A DNA stretch of 64,000 nucleotides. Origin: Anaerolineales bacterium (GTDB lineage: Bacteria; Chloroflexota; Anaerolineae; Anaerolineales; UBA11579). Below, piece by piece: positions 6,270-63,913 of the stretch (within the stretch, counting starts at the first letter, position 1; each line of letters starts with the position of its first letter). The notes beneath the pieces were generated by a model that made no database searches, was not told the DNA's origin, and saw nothing but the letters and a program-made list of their open reading frames with translations. The stretch spans positions 372,001-436,000 of the forward strand of contig JAHCIJ010000003.1 in the NCBI GenBank assembly GCA_026129255.1. Reading direction: 5' to 3'. Both the position numbers and the translations under genes were made by a program.

Positions 6270-7486
6270 AGCGTCACCAGGGGCGCGAGGTGCAGGTTGT
6301 AGATCTGCTGCCAGCTGTATTGCTCCCGCACGCGGGCGCGCAGCCGCCAAACCTGGCTGGATTGCAGCGTGTTGCGAATGAGCTCGGCAACGTCTGCCGG
6401 GTTTGCTTCCGGCGAAAAGTAATAGGCCTCATCACCCCCCAACTCTTCCAGAGCGGGGATGTTGGAGCAAAATACCGGGATGCCCGCCAGCCCGGCTTCC
6501 AGCACTGGGATACCAAAGCCCTCATCCTTGCTGGGCAGGAACAATGCATCCGCCAGGTGATAAAAATCACTGATCACTTCGTCCGAGATGAAGCCATACA
6601 CATGCTCTGCCAGGAAGTGTGCGTGGCCATCCAGGTTCAATTCACTGCGGAGTTGCTTCAATGATGCGAAGTAGGCTTCGTTGGCGGGGTTGTGCGGCCC
6701 AAGCGGGCCGGTGATGAGTAGCCGCGCCTCCGGCATCTGTTTACGCAGCGCCGCCAGGCTGTGCAGCGCCAGCTCAATGTTCTTGCGCCCAGTAAGGCGT
6801 ACCGGCATCAGCAATAAGGGGCTGGCCGCCATCAGGTCAAGCGAGTTGACCAGCTCGATAGACATACGCCCCAGTTTCAGAAACAGACGCGGGCTGACGC
6901 CGTTGGGGATCACAATGATCTCTTCCGCGGGCACGTTTAAGAGTTGTGCCAGCTCGCCTTGGCGCGCCGAGGAGATAGTTACCTGGGTGGCATTCGGCCA
7001 TGGGGTGCGTAGCAGGTCCCACGGTTCGCCTGGGTGCAATTCGGCGCCGTAGCGCTCCGAGTCCCAGGCGATGTCGTGATGCCACAATACCAAGCGAGGA
7101 GCGTTGGCCCTCTGGGTTAGCTCGTACAGTGCTGTGGTCAGTGCTAGATTCTTATGCAGCGAAGCTACATTGTGGGCAAAGAGCACATCCACGCCCTCCA
7201 GGGCCTCCTCAAGGCGTGAGCGAATATCGGCAACTAAAGGATCCCACCCGGCCGGCAGCTGCCCGGTGTCCAGGGTTTGTTTGGCGGCCAGCACGCGTGA
7301 GTGGCGTGAATCCAGTAATGGGATCAGGTGCAGGGCAATACGCCGGTCAGTGGCCTGGCCGCGGCCAGCCAGGATGCGCACGGAGTGGCCAGCGGCGGCC
7401 AGCATGCGCGCATGATGGTCAATGACGCTTTCTACGCCGCCGACGATAGGCGGCGCGGTGTAGTGGAGGATGGCTACTGTACTCAT
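6266..7486 (-). CDS. Glycosyltransferase family 4-like protein
   Basis: 406 residues. The N-terminal Rossmann domain begins MSTVAILHYTAPPIVGGVE with the acceptor-side glycine loop. The C-terminal domain has the E-x7-E donor-binding motif in KDEGFGIPVLEAGLAGIPV and the preceding HFLAEHVYGFISDEVI, typical of GT4/GT-B enzymes. It probably uses an NDP-hexose; donor and acceptor are not visible. The stop overlaps the GTG of the GpgS-like gene by 3 nt, so both are translated from one message. A role in extending glucosylglycerate, or making a related glycoside, is a reasonable inference. The start avoids a 55-residue upstream extension without family similarity. Confidence 0.8.
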   Translation of the reverse strand: MSTVAILHYTAPPIVGGVESVIDHHARMLAAAGHSVRILAGRGQATDRRIALHLIPLLDSRHSRVLAAKQTLDTGQLPAGWDPLVADIRSRLEEALEGVDVLFAHNVASLHKNLALTTALYELTQRANAPRLVLWHHDIAWDSERYGAELHPGEPWDLLRTPWPNATQVTISSARQGELAQLLNVPAEEIIVIPNGVSPRLFLKLGRMSIELVNSLDLMAASPLLLMPVRLTGRKNIELALHSLAALRKQMPEARLLITGPLGPHNPANEAYFASLKQLRSELNLDGHAHFLAEHVYGFISDEVISDFYHLADALFLPSKDEGFGIPVLEAGLAGIPVFCSNIPALEELGGDEAYYFSPEANPADVAELIRNTLQSSQVWRLRARVREQYSWQQIYNLHLAPLVTL

Positions 7487-7659
7487 GGCTAATCTTGCCC
7501 ACTCAGAAGGGCGCCCCGCGCACGATGGCGCCGAGAGGGGTAGTGGATGAAGCAAATAGAGATGCCCTGATGGAAATCTGTGCCGGGCACAAGCAAAAAA
7601 AGTATAGCATCTTACGCGCTTCAGCCGCGCCCTGGATGCAATCGATAACAAAACGTTTA

Positions 7660-8205
7660 CTACGAAGTGAAAACAGGCAAGTGGCCCAATGCCACCACGT
7701 CACTCCACTTGGATGGGTCGCCCTCAGTGAAAATAGCGGCTTCTGCAACCACTTGCCCGCCAGCCTTCTCCACTACGGCGCGCATGCCTAGCTGAGTGGA
7801 GCCGGTGCTGACCACATCGTCTACCAGCGCCACGCGTTTGCCAGCGATCAGCGGCAGATCCTTGGCATCCAGGTAGAGGGTTTGGGCCGCGTTGGTGGTG
7901 ATGGAAACCGTCTCGGCGGAAATAGCTTCGCCCATGTAGGATTTGTAATTCTTGCGCAGCACCACATAGGGCTTGTGGGCTTCTTCGGCCAGGGTGTGGA
8001 TGAGCGGAATGCTCTTCGCCTCGGCGGTGAGTAGAACATCGTAGTCCGCGGCTGGCAGCCTGGCGGCCAGCTCCTTTGCGCAGGCGCGTACCAGCTCAAC
8101 ATCGCCCAGAATGTTCAGGATGGCGATCGTGACGCCAGGCGCCACCTCAAACAAGGGCAGCTCACGCGTGAGCCCGGCGACTTGGACAGTGTGAACTGTG
8201 CTCAT
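7660..8205 (-). CDS. Phosphoribosyltransferase (adenine PRT-like)
   Basis: 181 residues. The PRPP-binding motif VALVDDVVSTGST lies near residue 130 and an aromatic-basic stretch (YVVLRKNYKSYMG) upstream matches the flexible loop of adenine/xanthine PRT-type enzymes. It should form a nucleotide from a purine-like base and PRPP in the cytosol. Exact base specificity is not evident; it is shorter on the N side than xpt at 14305 and clearly distinct from it. It is transcribed divergently from the PLD-like lipoprotein through a shared ATTATAAT box 6 nt from its ATG. Confidence 0.8.
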   Translation of the reverse strand: MSTVHTVQVAGLTRELPLFEVAPGVTIAILNILGDVELVRACAKELAARLPAADYDVLLTAEAKSIPLIHTLAEEAHKPYVVLRKNYKSYMGEAISAETVSITTNAAQTLYLDAKDLPLIAGKRVALVDDVVSTGSTQLGMRAVVEKAGGQVVAEAAIFTEGDPSKWSDVVALGHLPVFTS

Positions 8206-56872: not shown

Positions 56873-57607
56873 TTAGGCTGTTGGCGGCTTGTGGCCGTAG
56901 ACCGCGCTGGCACAGCCAAAAAAGAATTCTGTGTACTGCGTCTCCAGGCCAGCGATTCGGAAGATGGCTTGAGCGCGCTTGGCATTCTTGAACAGGCGTG
57001 TGTAGCGCGCCAGCAGCCTGTAATTGTCTGGGTTGCCCAGCAGCACGCGCCCCAACAGGGGAATGCAATATTGAATGTAGATCATGTAAGGAATGCGCAG
57101 AATCGCTGAGGCAGGTACTGAGATCTCAACCAGCGCAAACGTGCCGCCAGGTTTGAGCAAGCGCATGATCTCGCGTGCCAGTGTGTGCAGTTGCGGCTCT
57201 GAGAATGTTTTGAGGCCAAAGGTGGAGATGACTGCATCCATACTGGCGTTGGTAAATGAGATCACCAGGGCGTTCTGATTGGACACATGCAGGTGGTTCG
57301 AACGCTTGAAGGCGGCCGTCTGGGTGGAAAGCTCCACCATACGGTTGGAAATGTCGAAGGCGTACAGCTGGCCGCCCGGGCCAATCCAGCGAAGGATGTC
57401 TGGCCAGGCCTCTCCCTGCCCAGACATAAAATCGCAGACCTTGCCTCCCTCGTTGAGCCTGGCCAGGCGAACGCACTGCCCACGCCACCACCAGGCAAAG
57501 CCGAACGAAGAGATCAGGTTCACCAGTCCATAGGTGCCTGACATTTCATTGAATAGTTGCTTGATGTAAGCGGGGTCGTAGAGCTTTTCAGGCGCTACGG
57601 GTTGCAT
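56873..57607 (-). CDS. Class I SAM-dependent methyltransferase (UbiE-like)
   Basis: 244 residues. YDPAYIKQLFNEMSGTYGLV is a UbiE/COQ5-like opening. Motif I is degenerate, VCDFMSGQGEAWPDIL in place of D-x-G-x-G-x-G, and motif II MDAVISTFGLKTF with LLKPGGTFALVEI follows. It probably methylates a small lipid or quinone-like compound. The start overlaps the 3' end of the DNA methyltransferase gene by 20 bp, which suggests co-transcription. A longer start at 57670 lies deeper in that gene. Confidence 0.75.
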   Translation of the reverse strand: MQPVAPEKLYDPAYIKQLFNEMSGTYGLVNLISSFGFAWWWRGQCVRLARLNEGGKVCDFMSGQGEAWPDILRWIGPGGQLYAFDISNRMVELSTQTAAFKRSNHLHVSNQNALVISFTNASMDAVISTFGLKTFSEPQLHTLAREIMRLLKPGGTFALVEISVPASAILRIPYMIYIQYCIPLLGRVLLGNPDNYRLLARYTRLFKNAKRAQAIFRIAGLETQYTEFFFGCASAVYGHKPPTA

Positions 57608-58532
57608 TGGTCCCCTGGGCAATACGCTTTTCAGCCAACTTGATGTACTTCTTGTCCAGCTCATAGCCAACGTAGCTGCGGCCTGTGTTCAGGGCGGCCA
57701 GTGCGCTGGTGCCGCTGCCCATGAAGGGATCCAGCACCACTTCGCCGGGGAAGGTGTAGAGCTCGATCAGCCGCCGCGGCAGCTCCAGCGGGAAGGGCGC
57801 CGGGTGGCCGATCTTGCGCGCCGAGACGGTGGGGAAGCTCCACACGCTTTTGGTGCTCTGCAGGAAGTCGTCTCGCTCACTGGTGAAGCGCTTGGCGCCC
57901 TCTGGCGCCGGGCGGCCAAAGCGCGCCTTGCTGAAGACGAGGATGTACTCGTGCACATCGCGCAGGGTGGGGTTGCTGGCGCTGCGCCAGGAGCCCCACG
58001 CGGTAGAGCCGCCCGCCGAGCTGGCCTTGTCCCAGATGATCTCGCCGCGCATCAGGTAACCGAGCTGCAGCATGTCCTGGATGATGAAAGCGTGCAGAGG
58101 AATATAGGGCTTGCGGCCTAAATTGGCTACGTTGATGCAGGCGCGGCCGCCGGGCACCAGCACGCGCAGCGTCTCGGCCCACACGCGCCGCATCATCCCC
58201 AAATATTGCTCAAGATCCAGATCCTTGTCGTATTCTTTGCCAGCGTTGTACGGCGGTGAGGTCACCATCAGGTGCACGCTGTTGTCAGGCAGTTCGTGCA
58301 TATCTTCGCTGCTGTGGGCGAAGATGCGGTTGCGCACTTCGGCGGGCAGCTCGGCCTCGATGTAAGGACTATTGCTTTCAGTATTGAGATTGGTGTACAG
58401 GGCGCTGTTGTAGAAGCTACTGGCGTCGTGGTTCTCGCGCTTGGAGCTGCCAAAAGCGCTGCTGTGCGTACCCTTGGCACGTGCGCTCTTGGCGCGCGTG
58501 CCTTTTCTGGGGCTGCGTTTGGCTTTTGCCAT
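57588..58532 (-). CDS. Orphan DNA methyltransferase (N4-cytosine/N6-adenine, beta-type order)
   Basis: 314 residues. A basic N-terminus (KAKRSPRKGTRAKSARAKG) precedes the catalytic motif TSPPYNAGKEYD near residue 90. The SAM motif DPFMGSGTSALAAL lies near the C-terminus, giving the beta-class order (motif IV before motif I). The SPPY form favours N4-cytosine methylation. No restriction endonuclease gene is adjacent, so it is a solitary methyltransferase, perhaps regulatory. Upstream in-frame sequence crosses intergenic repeats and is not counted. Confidence 0.85.
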   Translation of the reverse strand: MAKAKRSPRKGTRAKSARAKGTHSSAFGSSKRENHDASSFYNSALYTNLNTESNSPYIEAELPAEVRNRIFAHSSEDMHELPDNSVHLMVTSPPYNAGKEYDKDLDLEQYLGMMRRVWAETLRVLVPGGRACINVANLGRKPYIPLHAFIIQDMLQLGYLMRGEIIWDKASSAGGSTAWGSWRSASNPTLRDVHEYILVFSKARFGRPAPEGAKRFTSERDDFLQSTKSVWSFPTVSARKIGHPAPFPLELPRRLIELYTFPGEVVLDPFMGSGTSALAALNTGRSYVGYELDKKYIKLAEKRIAQGTNATRSA

Positions 58533-58590
58533 GGGGGAAATGTAACAGAAAAAACTACGAGAGTTCTGCAGACGCTGGCGAATCATAAAC

Positions 58591-58641
58591 CTGTCATTGC
58601 GAGCCACAGACCGCTTGCGGTCTGTGCGCGCTGCAATCTGG
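58591..58641 (+). repeat. Dispersed repeat, CTGTCATTGCGAG...GCAATC copy
   Basis: Left end CTGTCATTGCGAGC, centre stem CACAGACCGC-TTGC-GGTCTGTG, right end GCTGCAATCTGG. Confidence 0.65.
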
Positions 58642-58863
58642 GTTAACTCTGCGTGCATAGCAGGGCCTTGTACATTTCCCTTTTTCCTTTCAGGGGCTCT
58701 GCCCCTGCGACCCCGCAAAGGGGGAACAGCTGTTCCCCCTTTGGATCCCCCTCGCAACGTTCGTGTACCGTTGCAACCTGTGACGACTTCTGTGGGATCC
58801 GCGTCGCAAGCGGCTTTGGTTTCTTATTTGCTTGAATGAAATTGAACTGAGCTTTACTACTGT

Positions 58864-59042: not shown

Positions 59043-60137
59043 TTATCCGGGCCACACCGCGCCGGCACGCACCACCCCGCCATCGGGCACATCGTCTTTG
59101 ATGGTGGCGCTGTTGCCGATGCGCGCCATGCCCCCGATGCGTACGTTGAGGTTGACGGTGACGCCCATACCCACCAGGCTGCCGCGGCCCACCTGCACGC
59201 CGCCCGCCAGAATGCTGCCGGGCGAGAGATTGGCATAGTCTGCGATAACACAATCGTGCGAAACAATGACGCCCGTGTTAATGATGGCGCCTTGGCCGAT
59301 GCGCGCCTCAGAGCCCACATACGCATGCGGGAAAACTTGGACGCCCGGCGCCAGCTGTGCGCTAGGCTCCACTACGGCGCTGGGATGCACCAGAGTGGGC
59401 AATTGGAAGCCAGCGGCCTCCAGTTTTTCGAACACTGCAATGCGTGAGCTCATGGCGCCGATGCCGCCCACGGCATTGAGCGCCCAGTGGCAGCCCGCCT
59501 CGCGCAGGGCGGCCAGGGCCGCCTCGCCGCCGATCACGGCCGCGTCCAGTACGAGCTCGCCCGGTTGGCGGCTGTCATCCACAACGCCGGCCAGGGTGTA
59601 GCCACCCGCGGCGCGCAGCAGATCGATCACGGCTTTGCCGTGGCCGCCGCCGCCGTATACGATCACGGCATCCGCCAGGCTGGCTGCCTCGGGGATGGTG
59701 AACGTCTCCGCAGCCCCCTGCGGGGACAGCTTGGTAATGTAGTCTTCGGTGATGATGGGGCCAACCGGCAACGAAGCCAGCGGAATATTGCGTTTTTGGG
59801 CCAGCTGCAACGCAGGCTGGGTGATGCGCAGCCCGGCGGGCACGGCCTCGCCGTCTGCTTTGGCCGGTGTTTGCGCTGGCTGCCAGTCTTTGCTAGGCGC
59901 CAGATACAAAAATACCTGGCCGGCGGGCAGCATTTGGCCCTGCTGGGCCTGTAACCCAGCGACAAAGCCGGGGGCATCCGCCAGCAGCTCAAAGGTCGAT
60001 TTGGTGGTCTCGAGCGTGGCCAGCACATCGCCCTTGGCGACCTGATCGCCATTGGCCACGGAGAGACTTACCAGCCGCGCTTCAGTTTCGTTGGGATTAA
60101 TGAGGGGGACGTGAACGGCCTGCGCTTGCGACGACAT
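59043..60137 (-). CDS. Lipoyl domain - E1/E3-binding domain - NeuD/PglD-type sugar acyltransferase fusion
   Basis: 364 residues. Residues 1-80 are a lipoyl domain with the candidate lipoylated K46 in LETTKSTFELL. Residues about 105-140 (ITQPALQLAQKRNIPLASLP, then ITEDYI) match the peripheral subunit-binding domain of E2 proteins. Residues about 160-364 are a NeuD/PglD-like acyltransferase: Rossmann part VIVYGGGGHGKAVIDLL, then a left-handed beta-helix with the catalytic-type His in IVSHDCVIADYANLSPGS. The usual E2 catalytic core is absent. It lies 7 bp after E1 beta. TATAAA lies 6 nt before its ATG. Probable role: acyl transfer to an amino sugar. Confidence 0.85.
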   Translation of the reverse strand: MSSQAQAVHVPLINPNETEARLVSLSVANGDQVAKGDVLATLETTKSTFELLADAPGFVAGLQAQQGQMLPAGQVFLYLAPSKDWQPAQTPAKADGEAVPAGLRITQPALQLAQKRNIPLASLPVGPIITEDYITKLSPQGAAETFTIPEAASLADAVIVYGGGGHGKAVIDLLRAAGGYTLAGVVDDSRQPGELVLDAAVIGGEAALAALREAGCHWALNAVGGIGAMSSRIAVFEKLEAAGFQLPTLVHPSAVVEPSAQLAPGVQVFPHAYVGSEARIGQGAIINTGVIVSHDCVIADYANLSPGSILAGGVQVGRGSLVGMGVTVNLNVRIGGMARIGNSATIKDDVPDGGVVRAGAVWPG

Positions 60138-60143
60138 GCAGGC

Positions 60144-60149
60144 TTTATA
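60144..60149 (-). promoter_or_regulatory. -10-like box (TATAAA) before the E2-like gene
   Basis: On minus TATAAA overlaps the E1 beta stop codon and is followed by GCCTGC and the ATG at 60137 (6 nt). It could give a separate leaderless transcript of the last gene. Confidence 0.4.
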
Positions 60150-61161
60150 CCATTTCCCGCGCGGCGGTGAGGATGTCTTCCACCGAGGGCAGAGCCGCCT
60201 CTTCCAGCGTGCGGGCGGCTGGAATGGGCGCTTCGGCGGCGGCCACGCGGCGGGCGGCCAGCAGCCGGCTGCCGAATTGTTGGGCGGCGCGCGCCAACTG
60301 CTCTGCGCCCCAGCCCAGCGAGAAGGTACCTTCTTCGATCGTGAGCAGGCGGCCGCTTTGAGCCAGCGAGGCGGCAAGACTGGGTTCGAGGCTGCCTGCG
60401 GCGGGCAGCGGCGCCAGCTGCGTAGGCACAACCAATTCGCAGAACAACTCGTGCTCGAAGGCCAGCCGCGTCAGCGCTTCGCGCGCCAGCTCGGCCATGT
60501 AGCCATACGCCGTGAGGGTGAGTTGGGGCGCCGGTGCGCCTTTGAGGCGTAGTGTGTGCGTGGGGGCGAAGTCGCCATCGGCGATCTGAATCTCGAAATC
60601 GGCCAAAGCCTCGGCGTCCAATACTGGCTTGGGGTACAGGACCTTGTTCTCAATAAAGAAGACCGGGTCATCCTGCTCGAGGATGGCGCGGCGCAGTAAC
60701 TCGCCGGGGTCGCTGAGCGTATTGGGGGCCAGCACGCGCAGGCCGGGGATGCCGAGGTACAGCTTCTCCAGCGTTTGGCTGTGCGTGGGCCCGTAGCCGC
60801 GCCGCCCGCCCATGGGGGTACGAATGACGAGCGGCACAGAGGCCGCGCCGTTGAACATGGCTGGGAACTTGGTGATGCTGTTGATGAGCTGGTCTGCCAC
60901 CAGGGTGCTGAAGTCGCCGAACATCAGCTCCACCACGGGGCGCAGGCCGCGTAGCGCCATGCCCGCGCCTACACCGGCGATGGCAGCCTCAGACACCGGG
61001 CTGGTCCACACCCGCTGCGGGTATTGGCTGGAGAGTCCGCGGCTGACCTTGAACGCGCCGCCATACGGGTCGAGCAGGTCTTCGCCGATCAGGTAGACAC
61101 GCCCATCCTGCGCGAAGGCAGCATGCAAGCCGCGGTTGAGGGACTCGAGCACACTAGTCAT
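60145..61161 (-). CDS. ThDP-dependent 2-oxoacid dehydrogenase E1 component, beta subunit-like
   Basis: 338 residues. VYLIGEDLLDPYGGAFKVSR, SPVSEAAIAGVGAGMALRGL and VVELMFGDFSTLVADQL are the transketolase-type pyrimidine-binding region of E1 beta. The C-terminal domain has TIEEGTFSLGWGAEQLA. It binds the pyrimidine end of ThDP with E1 alpha and decarboxylates a 2-oxoacid. Gene order alpha-beta-E2-like mirrors pyruvate/acetoin dehydrogenase operons. The upstream in-frame region overlaps E1 alpha and is excluded. Confidence 0.9.
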   Translation of the reverse strand: MTSVLESLNRGLHAAFAQDGRVYLIGEDLLDPYGGAFKVSRGLSSQYPQRVWTSPVSEAAIAGVGAGMALRGLRPVVELMFGDFSTLVADQLINSITKFPAMFNGAASVPLVIRTPMGGRRGYGPTHSQTLEKLYLGIPGLRVLAPNTLSDPGELLRRAILEQDDPVFFIENKVLYPKPVLDAEALADFEIQIADGDFAPTHTLRLKGAPAPQLTLTAYGYMAELAREALTRLAFEHELFCELVVPTQLAPLPAAGSLEPSLAASLAQSGRLLTIEEGTFSLGWGAEQLARAAQQFGSRLLAARRVAAAEAPIPAARTLEEAALPSVEDILTAAREMV

Positions 61162-61172
61162 GGACAGGAGCC

Positions 61173-61202
61173 AGTGAGCAGTGAATAGTGAGTAGTGAGC
61201 AG
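61173..61202. repeat. Heptamer tandem array (4 units)
   Basis: AGTGAGC-AGTGAAT-AGTGAGT-AGTGAGC-AG, four 7-bp units in the 79-bp gap between E1 alpha and E1 beta. Confidence 0.7.
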
Positions 61203-61240
61203 GCTCGGATACCAGCAGCGCCTGCCAGTTAGAGGGCGCA

Positions 61241-62155
61241 TCATGGCGGGGCAACCTTCGCAAGGTGATTGGCCGGGGGTGGTGGGTCGGCTTCTGCCTG
61301 GGCATAGGCGGCGGCGACCGCGGTATCGACTTCGCTTTCAATGGCCTGGCGCTCGCTGGCTGGCAGCTGGGCCGCGTGCAGGGTGAGCGGATCGAGCCTG
61401 GTACGCAGCTCTTCGATATAGGCCGGGTCACGCGTGTCGTCGCCTTTGGAGTGCGGGCCAAAGCGCGTGGTGTTGAGCACCAGGGCACGCGGTGTGCGCG
61501 TGGCGCGCAACTCGGCAAGCTCGTGCTGTGCGGCGCTAGAGATCTTGGCTACGTCGTTGCTGTCCATCTCCACTACAGGGATACCAAAGGCGGCGAAGCG
61601 GGCAGCCAGGCTGCCCGCCAGCGCCAGTTCGGTGGGTGTGGTCTGTGCGATGTGGTTGTTCTCAACCACAAATAGGATCGGTGCATTCCATAGCGAGGCG
61701 ATGTTGAGGCTCTCGTACACAGTCCCTTCGCCCAGCGCGCCGTCGCCCAGGAACAGCACGGTGATGGCGTCGCTGCCCTTTTGCTTCTCGGCCAGGGCAG
61801 TGCCCACGGCGATGGGGGCGGTGCTGCCCAGCACGCCGTTGGAATAGAAATCCTTCCAATGCAAGTGCTGCGAGCCGCCCAGCCCCCCGCACACACCGGT
61901 GGCCTTGCCCATCAGCTCGGCGAACAAGGCGCGCAGATCGCCGCCATAGGCAATGAAGTGCCCGTGGCAGCGGTGATTGCTGAACACGATGTCGCCTTCG
62001 TTGAGGTGCGCCAGTACGCCTACCGCATTGGCCTCCTGGCCGATGTAGGTGTGGGTGGTGCCGTAGAAAGCGCCTTTGGGGAAAGCATCCAGCACGGTTT
62101 CTTCAAAGCGGCGGATGGTGTACAGCTGCCGGTATAGCGCGGCGTGGTCTGGCAT
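61241..62155 (-). CDS. ThDP-dependent 2-oxoacid dehydrogenase E1 component, alpha subunit-like
   Basis: 304 residues. YRQLYTIRRFEETVLDAF opens the protein. The ThDP motif starts at GDGALGEG and ends at the NN of FVVENNH, and HLHWKDFYSNGVLGST precedes it. RFGPHSKGDDTRDP is the phosphorylation-loop-like segment of E1 alpha. Together with E1 beta it should transfer an acyl group to a lipoyl domain. The start at 62155 is 7 nt after a TATAAT that overlaps the stop of the sugar transferase gene; the ATG at 62164 (TAATG overlap) is the alternative. Confidence 0.9.
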   Translation of the reverse strand: MPDHAALYRQLYTIRRFEETVLDAFPKGAFYGTTHTYIGQEANAVGVLAHLNEGDIVFSNHRCHGHFIAYGGDLRALFAELMGKATGVCGGLGGSQHLHWKDFYSNGVLGSTAPIAVGTALAEKQKGSDAITVLFLGDGALGEGTVYESLNIASLWNAPILFVVENNHIAQTTPTELALAGSLAARFAAFGIPVVEMDSNDVAKISSAAQHELAELRATRTPRALVLNTTRFGPHSKGDDTRDPAYIEELRTRLDPLTLHAAQLPASERQAIESEVDTAVAAAYAQAEADPPPPANHLAKVAPP

Positions 62156-62162
62156 GGCGCGC

Positions 62163-62168
62163 ATTATA
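62163..62168 (-). promoter_or_regulatory. -10 box (TATAAT) for a leaderless E1 alpha transcript
   Basis: On minus TATAAT is followed by GCGCGCC and the ATG at 62155 (7 nt). It is embedded in the final codons of the sugar transferase gene. Confidence 0.5.
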
Positions 62169-62817
62169 ACGGGCCGCCCTTTTCGTCTGGGGCTGCTGCC
62201 GGGCGGCTGCCCATGAACTCCATGGCGGTGGCGTTGCCCGGCTGGCTAATGCCTTCGCGCTGCAGCACTTTGAGCGGCGTGAGCAGCAAGATCTTGATAT
62301 CCAGCCACAGCGACCAGTTGTCCACGTACCAGACATCCAGGGCGAACTTGTCCTCCCATGAGACGTTGTTGCGGCCATTGATCTGGGCCCAGCCGGTGAT
62401 GCCCGGCAGGGTGAGATGACGGCGGAACTGCTGCGGGGTGTAGCGGTCCAGGTAGCGCATCAGCAGCGGGCGCGGGCCAACCAGGCTCATCTCGCCGCGT
62501 AGCACATTCCATAGCTCGGGCAGTTCGTCCAGGCTGGTGGCGCGCAGCAGACGGCCGAAGCCGGTGAGGCGCTGGGCGTCTGGCAGCGGCTGGCCATCTG
62601 CACCGCTGGCGTCTCGCATGGTGCGGAACTTGTAGAGGGTGAAGGGCAGGCCACCGATGCCCGGGCGCGGCTGGCGGAAGAGCACCGGCTGGCCGAGGAA
62701 GATTCGTACCAATAGCGCCAGCAGCAGGATGAGCGGCAGCAGCACAATGCCGCCCAGCAGGGCCAGCACGAAGTCTAGAATGCGCTTGGAGCGGGGAATG
62801 GAGGCACGCGGTGACAC
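62164..62817 (-). CDS. Bacterial sugar transferase (polyprenyl-phosphate hexose-1-phosphate transferase)
   Basis: 217 residues from a GTG. One N-terminal membrane helix (FVLALLGGIVLLPLILLLAL) is followed by the catalytic region: QPRPGIGGLPFTLYKFRTM, LRATSLDELPELWNVLRGEM and LVGPRPL. These transferases load the first sugar phosphate onto undecaprenyl phosphate for exopolysaccharide or glycan synthesis. The GTG start has TAAAAT exactly 7 nt upstream; an ATG at 62844 would lie upstream of the box. It precedes E1 alpha, linking the acyl system to glycan assembly. Confidence 0.9.
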   Translation of the reverse strand: MSPRASIPRSKRILDFVLALLGGIVLLPLILLLALLVRIFLGQPVLFRQPRPGIGGLPFTLYKFRTMRDASGADGQPLPDAQRLTGFGRLLRATSLDELPELWNVLRGEMSLVGPRPLLMRYLDRYTPQQFRRHLTLPGITGWAQINGRNNVSWEDKFALDVWYVDNWSLWLDIKILLLTPLKVLQREGISQPGNATAMEFMGSRPAAAPDEKGGPL

Positions 62818-62824
62818 GCTGCTG

Positions 62825-62830
62825 ATTTTA
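62825..62830 (-). promoter_or_regulatory. -10 box (TAAAAT) for the sugar transferase gene
   Basis: On minus TAAAAT is followed by CAGCAGC and the GTG at 62817 (7 nt). It overlaps the end of the ATP-grasp gene. Confidence 0.5.
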
Positions 62831-63814
62831 TCAGCGCGTGACAAACATCTTTTCTACGGCGCGGGCGTAAATCGCCTTGGCCGTGGCGCGGTTCTCCGGC
62901 AGGTGGCGGGCAAAGTGCTCCATCATGATGCCGGAATTCACTTCCAACACCTGCAGCTCGCCCTCCACTTCCACAACATCTATGGAAGCAAAGCGAATGT
63001 TGATGGCGCGTTGTGCCGCTTGAGCGATGCTAAGCAGTGTGTCCAGAAGCGGGCCAGGCTGCAGCTGCTCCGGGCTGGCGCCCGCGCTGAGGTTGTGTTT
63101 CCAGCCCACGGTGAGTAGATCGCCCGCGCTGGGAATGTGCTCCAGCTGGCCCTCGTGCTGCTCCAGGGCTTCGGCGGCCTGCGCCTGGGTGAGCTCCCCG
63201 GCCACCAGGGCGCGCTCGAGCAGCGTGCGCAGGTTGCTGGCGCCGTCACCTACCAACTGCGGGCGTTGCTTGCTGTAGGCCAACTGGCATTCGCCATCCA
63301 GCATCATCAGGCGGTATTCATTCTTGATGTCGTGATACGGGGACAGGCTGAGCGACTGGCCTTTTTGGAAGATGCTCTGAACGGCCTTCTCCAACTCGGC
63401 TTGTGTGTTGACCTTGGCTACGCCCAACCCGCCTGTGCCTTCATTGGGCTTGGCGACCAGCGGGCGGATGCCCTCATCCGGGCGTTGGCCGAGGGTGGCA
63501 TAGTCCATGATGCCTTGCCAGTGACCGTCGTCTGGGATGTAGGCGGCCCGGTTGGGATTGAGGAACAAGCGGTGCTCGATGCAGGGGATGCCGCGGCTTT
63601 TAAGCAGTGCGGCCGTGCCTGCTTTGTCGCCTGCCAGCATATGCGCGGTGGCGGAGTTGATCTCAAAGTTGAAGCCGAAGATGTGGCGCGCCTGCCCGTC
63701 TTTCTCCAGACGCAGGATCCAATTCTGCGAGAAAGGCGTGAACGTATAGCCTTGCTCTTCAGCAATTTCCTGCAACAGGGTGACGAGGATACGCTCGCGG
63801 GCTGGATTTGGCAT
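62831..63814 (-). CDS. ATP-grasp ligase (RimK/cyanophycin-synthetase-like)
   Basis: 327 residues. RPLVAKPNEGTGGLGVAKV is the ATP-grasp glycine-rich loop with its Lys, KNEYRLMMLDGECQLAYSKQ is the central sheet, and ASIDVVEVEGELQVLEVNSG holds the metal-binding E and N near the C-terminus. RPQLVGDGASNLRTLLE resembles cyanophycin synthetase and related amino-acid ligases. It joins a carboxylate to an amine with ATP; substrates unknown. The ATG has TAGAAT 7 nt upstream. It begins the glycan/acyl cluster and is 13 bp from the sugar transferase. Confidence 0.85.
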   Translation of the reverse strand: MPNPARERILVTLLQEIAEEQGYTFTPFSQNWILRLEKDGQARHIFGFNFEINSATAHMLAGDKAGTAALLKSRGIPCIEHRLFLNPNRAAYIPDDGHWQGIMDYATLGQRPDEGIRPLVAKPNEGTGGLGVAKVNTQAELEKAVQSIFQKGQSLSLSPYHDIKNEYRLMMLDGECQLAYSKQRPQLVGDGASNLRTLLERALVAGELTQAQAAEALEQHEGQLEHIPSAGDLLTVGWKHNLSAGASPEQLQPGPLLDTLLSIAQAAQRAINIRFASIDVVEVEGELQVLEVNSGIMMEHFARHLPENRATAKAIYARAVEKMFVTR

Positions 63815-63821
63815 GCGCCAT

Positions 63822-63827
63822 ATTCTA
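63822..63827 (-). promoter_or_regulatory. -10 box (TAGAAT) for the ATP-grasp gene
   Basis: On minus TAGAAT is followed by ATGGCGC and the ATG at 63814 (7 nt). No Shine-Dalgarno sequence is present. Confidence 0.5.
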
Positions 63828-63913
63828 AGCGGCAGAGTGCTCACACGCTGCTGCAAAAAAGGGCAACTTGTAACCTTTAAGCTTGGCTCCCAGGAGTATG
63901 CCGGAGGGCAAAT

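Follow-up and report, generated by a model that had tools for sequence, protein, structure and literature searches.

A lipoyl-domain protein with a PglD-type acyltransferase in place of the E2 core, encoded with a 2-oxoacid dehydrogenase E1 pair in Chloroflexota

We identified a three-gene locus in the window (the whole 64,000-nucleotide stretch of Anaerolineales DNA that was analyzed) that encodes the E1 alpha and E1 beta subunits of a 2-oxoacid dehydrogenase and a protein in which a lipoyl domain and a putative subunit-binding domain are followed by a PglD-type acyltransferase. The coupling of E1, lipoyl and PglD functions is well supported by sequence comparisons. The locus probably encodes a 2-oxoacid dehydrogenase-type machine that has been retooled for the acylation of amino-sugars, with the acyl group passing directly from the lipoyl arm to the sugar. 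Such a transfer would bypass CoA.

Organization of the locus and its proteins

The three genes are on the minus strand, and all are open and complete. Their order is E1 alpha, E1 beta and the fusion, whose ATG lies 7 nt past the E1 beta stop. The features are as follows.

62164..62844, minus strand: Bac_transf phosphoglycosyl transferase (PglC-like), upstream neighbour (Pfam, 3.4e-63)
61241..62155, minus strand: E1 alpha subunit, 304 aa (Pfam E1_dh, 5.1e-57; alternative ATG at 62164)
60145..61161, minus strand: E1 beta subunit, 338 aa (Pfam Transket_pyr, 1.1e-28; Transketolase_C, 2.5e-9)
59043..60137, minus strand: lipoyl, subunit-binding and PglD/NeuD acyltransferase fusion, 364 aa (Pfam, NCBIfam, alignment, AF2 model)
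59907..60116, minus strand: lipoyl domain, residues 8-77 (Biotin_lipoyl, 3.9e-10; lipoyl domains among the best PDB structure matches)
60000..60002, minus strand: K46, predicted lipoylated lysine in ETTKST (invariant with E43, T45 and G57 in 22 sequences)
59715..59840, minus strand: putative shortened peripheral subunit-binding domain, about residues 100-141 (hhalign and structure matches)
59421..59666, minus strand: PglD N-terminal nucleotide-sugar domain, residues 158-239 (PglD_N, 1e-10; GGGGHGK and DD conserved)
59070..59396, minus strand: left-handed beta-helix acyltransferase domain, residues 248-356 (Hexapep, 6.7e-11; top PDB matches PerB/PglD)
59256..59258, minus strand: H294, predicted catalytic base in SHDC (aligns with the PerB/PglD His)

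The earlier note on this DNA described E1 alpha and E1 beta followed by a lipoyl protein with a NeuD/PglD acyltransferase in place of the E2 core, and the Pfam and NCBIfam assignments agree. The Biotin_lipoyl, PglD_N and Hexapep matches in the fusion and the matches in both E1 subunits exceed the Pfam cut-offs, and the fusion scores 172.6 bits against NCBIfam TIGR03570 (NeuD/PglB/VioB; cut-off 160.8). The fusion has no Pfam match to the E2 core (2-oxoacid_dh, PF00198), and the three PF00198 genes of the genome, which encode ordinary E2s, are all located away from it. A chance fusion or an assembly error can be ruled out because 28 other Chloroflexota genomes (22 + 6 relatives) carry the same protein with identical architecture.

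An ATP-grasp protein with weak similarity to RimK and cyanophycin synthetase is encoded upstream of the sugar transferase (62831-63856, minus strand), and its homologues occur close to the fusion in two other loci (L004 and L005). Downstream of the fusion is an N6_N4 DNA methyltransferase (57588-58757, minus strand) with homologues by the fusion in three loci (L006, L007 and L013).

K46 of the fusion sits in the sequence LETTKST, and the lipoyl lysine of the E(T/S)TK motif is invariant among the 22 aligned fused proteins, in keeping with the lipoyl domain originally proposed. Lipoylation of K46 is predicted from this conservation. The motif of the window fusion is ETTK rather than the usual ETDK, which counts against lipoyl-to-sugar transfer. 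A biotin domain was considered and rejected, as the motif is E(T/S)TK, the biotinyl MKM motif is missing and E1 adjoins.

In the acyltransferase half, the 22 aligned proteins show little or no variation in the nucleotide-sugar motifs GGGGHGK and DD or at many positions of the beta-helix. H294 aligns with the histidine mutated in PerB (4eaa/4eab) and with the PglD HEC motif, and the catalytic histidine is retained at this position in 28 of 29 fused proteins. Structure prediction, which had been suggested as a check, gave an AF2 model of the 364-residue protein consisting of a lipoyl domain, a linker, a two-helix domain, a second linker and a PglD fold (mean pLDDT 77.3, pTM 0.48), with the beta-helix part poorly modelled (pLDDT about 40-68). 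The C-terminal half of the model matches PerB, PglD and their relatives, and the N-terminal part matches E2 lipoyl domains. The fusion is the sole PglD-type match at 1e-20 in its own genome.

The proposed peripheral subunit-binding domain is probably present in modified form. No Pfam match to such a domain was found in any of the 22 members, even at E = 1. In hhalign, the region GLRITxPALxLAxxxGLDLxxLPxGPLITExxVR aligns with the corresponding binding domains of the E2s encoded in the same genome (probability 94.8%, E 4.8e-8), and its match to solved E2 binding domains is weak (1w4i, E 0.02). When this domain is modelled alone (mean pLDDT 79.8), the first three Foldseek matches are E3/E1-binding domains (E about 1-2, low absolute scores for a small domain), as are the first ten rows from VIA-align (Z 3.5-4.7, likewise low for a small domain), including 1w4j, 3rnm and 2eq9 at Z 4.5-4.7. 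The usual GxGxxGR loop is absent. We take the region of about residues 100-141 to be a probable, though shortened, binding domain that has lost this loop. Of the two domains whose absence was to count against the proposal, the lipoyl domain is present and the subunit-binding domain probably so, in reduced form.

The closest solved structure to the E1 alpha subunit is human pyruvate dehydrogenase E1 alpha (6.6e-44), with branched-chain E1 reaching only 3.9e-22. Its HRxHGH, GDG...NN and HSKGD motifs are conserved, barring minor changes, in the relatives that cover them. The catalytic Glu (SEAAI) and His (THSQ) of E1 beta are invariant in the 26 relatives that cover these positions. Because the solved E1s closest to this pair belong to the pyruvate type, the likeliest candidate for the acyl group is acetyl. 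It is possible, although we hold it to be rather doubtful, that direct transfer instead begins with another 2-oxoacid (e.g. 2-oxobutyrate, hydroxypyruvate or glyoxylate) and yields an unusual N-acyl group with no CoA thioester pool in the cell. This would account for the retention of a dedicated E1 alongside ordinary pyruvate-type operons, and E1 alpha scores only 236 bits against a pyruvate family cut-off of 394. However, the nearest solved relatives remain the pyruvate E1s and not the branched-chain E1.

No ordinary E2 lies beside this E1 pair. The two E1 alpha-E1 beta-E2 operons of the genome lie elsewhere and contain separate E1s (about 32-39% identity to that of the window), so that a normal E2 working with the window pair, which would have spoken against the proposal, is not indicated by gene arrangement. 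The genome has one E3 and LipA.

Distribution in Chloroflexota and a second lineage

A pattern scan of 84,980 species, which reaches close relatives only, recovered 22 full-length relatives, all from Chloroflexota and about 49-79% identical. Six more fusions, together with NeuD-only genes, were found in 400 sampled genomes of the phylum. On plasmids, no fusion covering 80% of the query was identified using proteins of both lineages (see below) as queries. In the tree, the 29 fused proteins and three lipoyl-less proteins form one 100/100 clade (clade 1), within which the three lipoyl-less proteins form one 100/96 group.

The association with E1 extends across these genomes; a search for the lipoyl, binding and hexapeptide architecture next to E1 genes had been suggested in the earlier note. 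Within 6 kb and on the same strand, E1 beta is found in 28 of the 29 fused loci of clade 1 and E1 alpha in 25; contig edges account for three of the four E1 alpha gaps (L016, L017 and L023). E1 is near none of 32 lipoyl-less PglD loci. A Fisher test of lipoyl domain against adjacent E1 gives 6e-16, a value that ignores relatedness and is not usable as a probability.

The genomes of the three lipoyl-less clade-1 members have no E1 pair of the window type. G176 has no true E1 alpha, the only E1 alpha in G216 is about 33% identical to that of the window, and those in G104 are 30-38% identical. The NeuD protein of G216 (L042, about 7145-8113) has no Pfam lipoyl domain and carries a decayed N-terminal lipoyl-like remnant from which the lysine is gone (ISGTEEHTV). 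G216 is a natural loss case, in which a remnant without the lysine occurs in a genome without a matching E1 pair. The lipoyl domain and the E1 pair look to have been lost jointly in the three members, and these comparisons support the view that the two occur together and vanish together, as expected if the fusion is coupled to E1.

One fused protein (L008, 8001-9086) keeps the lipoyl lysine and has Gln in place of the catalytic histidine (VSQDC). A search of its bin gave no E1 of this type, and this case counts against direct transfer; the protein is possibly decaying or altered in function.

A second lineage is represented by proteins in two genomes (G158 and G302) that are 28-29% identical to the window fusion and have a textbook ETDK lipoyl domain. 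In G158 the NeuD domain is above cut-off and the gene order is Bac_transf, Gfo/Idh, lipoyl-NeuD, E1 alpha, E1 beta and DegT, with the Gfo/Idh protein nearest to UDP-GlcNAc 3-dehydrogenase. The E1 pair of G302 (75% identical) is on another contig, beside DegT. This lineage falls outside clade 1 in the tree and likely had a separate origin, but long branches make its exact position uncertain. A second-lineage cluster (L043, 4645-10853) shows the same order followed by a Wzz-like gene, and its Gfo/Idh gene suggests that the acceptor there may be a UDP-3-amino-sugar rather than a 4-amino-sugar.

The acyl donor and the probable sugar acceptor

PglD-type enzymes use acetyl-CoA, and the proline conserved in their C-terminal loop isomerizes from trans to cis when CoA binds (PMC8040287). 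None of the 32 clade-1 proteins, comprising 29 fused and three lipoyl-less ones, has this GxPA(K/R) loop; their C-terminus is instead AGxIWP-like or AGRxWT. The loop is present in nearly all of the 29 lipoyl-less outgroup proteins, two of which carry variant forms, and both lineage-2 proteins retain it as GVPAK. Its loss in clade 1 fits a changed acyl donor. However, it does not prove one: the three lipoyl-less members show the same change, and as they lack the loop while keeping the catalytic histidine, its loss alone cannot exclude CoA use.

These observations bear on a channelled CoA route, in which E1 charges the lipoyl arm and the PglD domain first hands the acyl group to CoA bound in its site, after which the resulting acetyl-CoA acylates the sugar locally. 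Such a route would accord with the acetyl-CoA dependence of PglD-type enzymes, the GVPAK loop of lineage 2 and the lipoyl-less clade members, which presumably use CoA with the same C-terminus. We nevertheless regard it as unlikely given that the CoA-linked proline loop is missing throughout clade 1 and that there is no E2-type core for lipoyl-to-CoA transfer. It is quite unlikely that the PglD domain simply uses free acetyl-CoA, with the lipoyl and binding domains serving regulation, a scaffold or delivery of the acyl group to another enzyme such as an ordinary E2 core. Against this reading, the same functions are combined in two distant lineages, the lipoyl domain disappears along with E1, and the two ordinary operons have E1s of their own. 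In its favour, the genome has three ordinary E2s, so acetyl-CoA can be made, and the three lipoyl-less relatives show that the PglD domain is able to stand alone.

The surrounding genes bear on the acceptor. In many relatives the order is Bac_transf, E1 alpha, E1 beta, lipoyl-NeuD and DegT, whereas lipoyl-less NeuD genes of other Chloroflexota lie in Bac_transf-NeuD-DegT clusters without E1 (e.g. L061, L065, L067 and L071). Of 29 fused loci, 12 have a same-strand Bac_transf gene near the fusion; among 29 lipoyl-less outgroup loci, 20 have one near NeuD. The window genome has a DegT copy (66% identical) sited elsewhere (C3:285391-286572), which is closest to the PseC/LegC UDP-sugar transaminases yet below their cut-offs, and it also carries PF02719 dehydratase-family genes. 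In our reading, the locus is a PglC-PglD-PglE-like pathway that has gained an E1 pair together with a lipoyl/binding module by insertion. The phosphoglycosyl transferase and DegT neighbours point to a bacillosamine-like UDP-4-amino-sugar pathway, and a nucleotide 4-amino-sugar of the PglC/PglD/PglE-like pathway is the likeliest acceptor. This narrows the amino-sugar or glycan target first suggested, with which the Bac_transf and DegT context agrees.

For direct transfer from lipoyl to sugar we envisage the following scheme, in which the docking of E1, the acceptor, the acyl group and reoxidation by E3 are all predicted. The thiamine diphosphate-dependent E1 alpha/E1 beta would decarboxylate a 2-oxoacid, most likely pyruvate, and reductively acylate the lipoyl group on K46, with the putative shortened subunit-binding domain tethering E1 and/or E3. 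The lipoyl arm would then swing into the active site of the trimeric left-handed beta-helix, the usual site of acetyl-CoA in PglD. There, with H294 as the base, the acyl group would be transferred to the amine of a UDP-4-amino-sugar produced by the DegT aminotransferase. The single E3 of the genome would reoxidize the dihydrolipoyl arm, and the acylated sugar would pass to the PglC-like phosphoglycosyl transferase.

Comparison with known acyltransferases and significance

The fusion shares with PglD, PerB and NeuD (TIGR03570) an N-terminal nucleotide-sugar domain, a left-handed beta-helix with a catalytic histidine, and DegT and phosphoglycosyl transferase neighbours. However, it has its own lipoyl and putative subunit-binding domains and an E1 pair, and in clade 1 it is without the CoA-tied C-terminal loop. 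With E2 acyltransferases it has in common a lipoyl domain, flexible linkers, a putative subunit-binding domain, the E1 alpha-E1 beta gene order and probably a trimer-forming transferase domain, the trimer being assumed from the PglD family. Unlike these, it has an unrelated fold instead of the 2-oxoacid_dh core, and its acceptor is probably a sugar amine, not CoA.

LpxA and LpxD are left-handed beta-helix acyltransferases that transfer an acyl group from a protein-bound pantetheine arm (that of the acyl carrier protein) to a nucleotide sugar or amino-sugar. By analogy, it is plausible that a left-handed beta-helix enzyme accepts a carrier arm, although here the carrier would be a fused lipoyl domain charged by E1 and not the acyl carrier protein. 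Our searches of the open-access literature turned up neither a lipoyl-NeuD/PglD fusion nor lipoyl-to-sugar transfer, an absence that is weak evidence.

In the textbook account, lipoyl domains of 2-oxoacid dehydrogenases hand their acyl group to CoA. On balance, we favour the view that the fusion is a lipoyl-dependent, CoA-free sugar N-acyltransferase, perhaps arisen twice in Chloroflexota, that forms an amide on a nucleotide amino-sugar in direct coupling with the oxidative decarboxylation of a 2-oxoacid. The acyl-lipoyl domain would then be a biosynthetic donor in its own right, possibly of an unusual acyl group. If so, the lipoyl arm would serve biosynthesis as a direct acyl donor, much as the acyl carrier protein does for LpxA, and the E2 core could be swapped for an unrelated enzyme while the logic of the swinging arm is retained.
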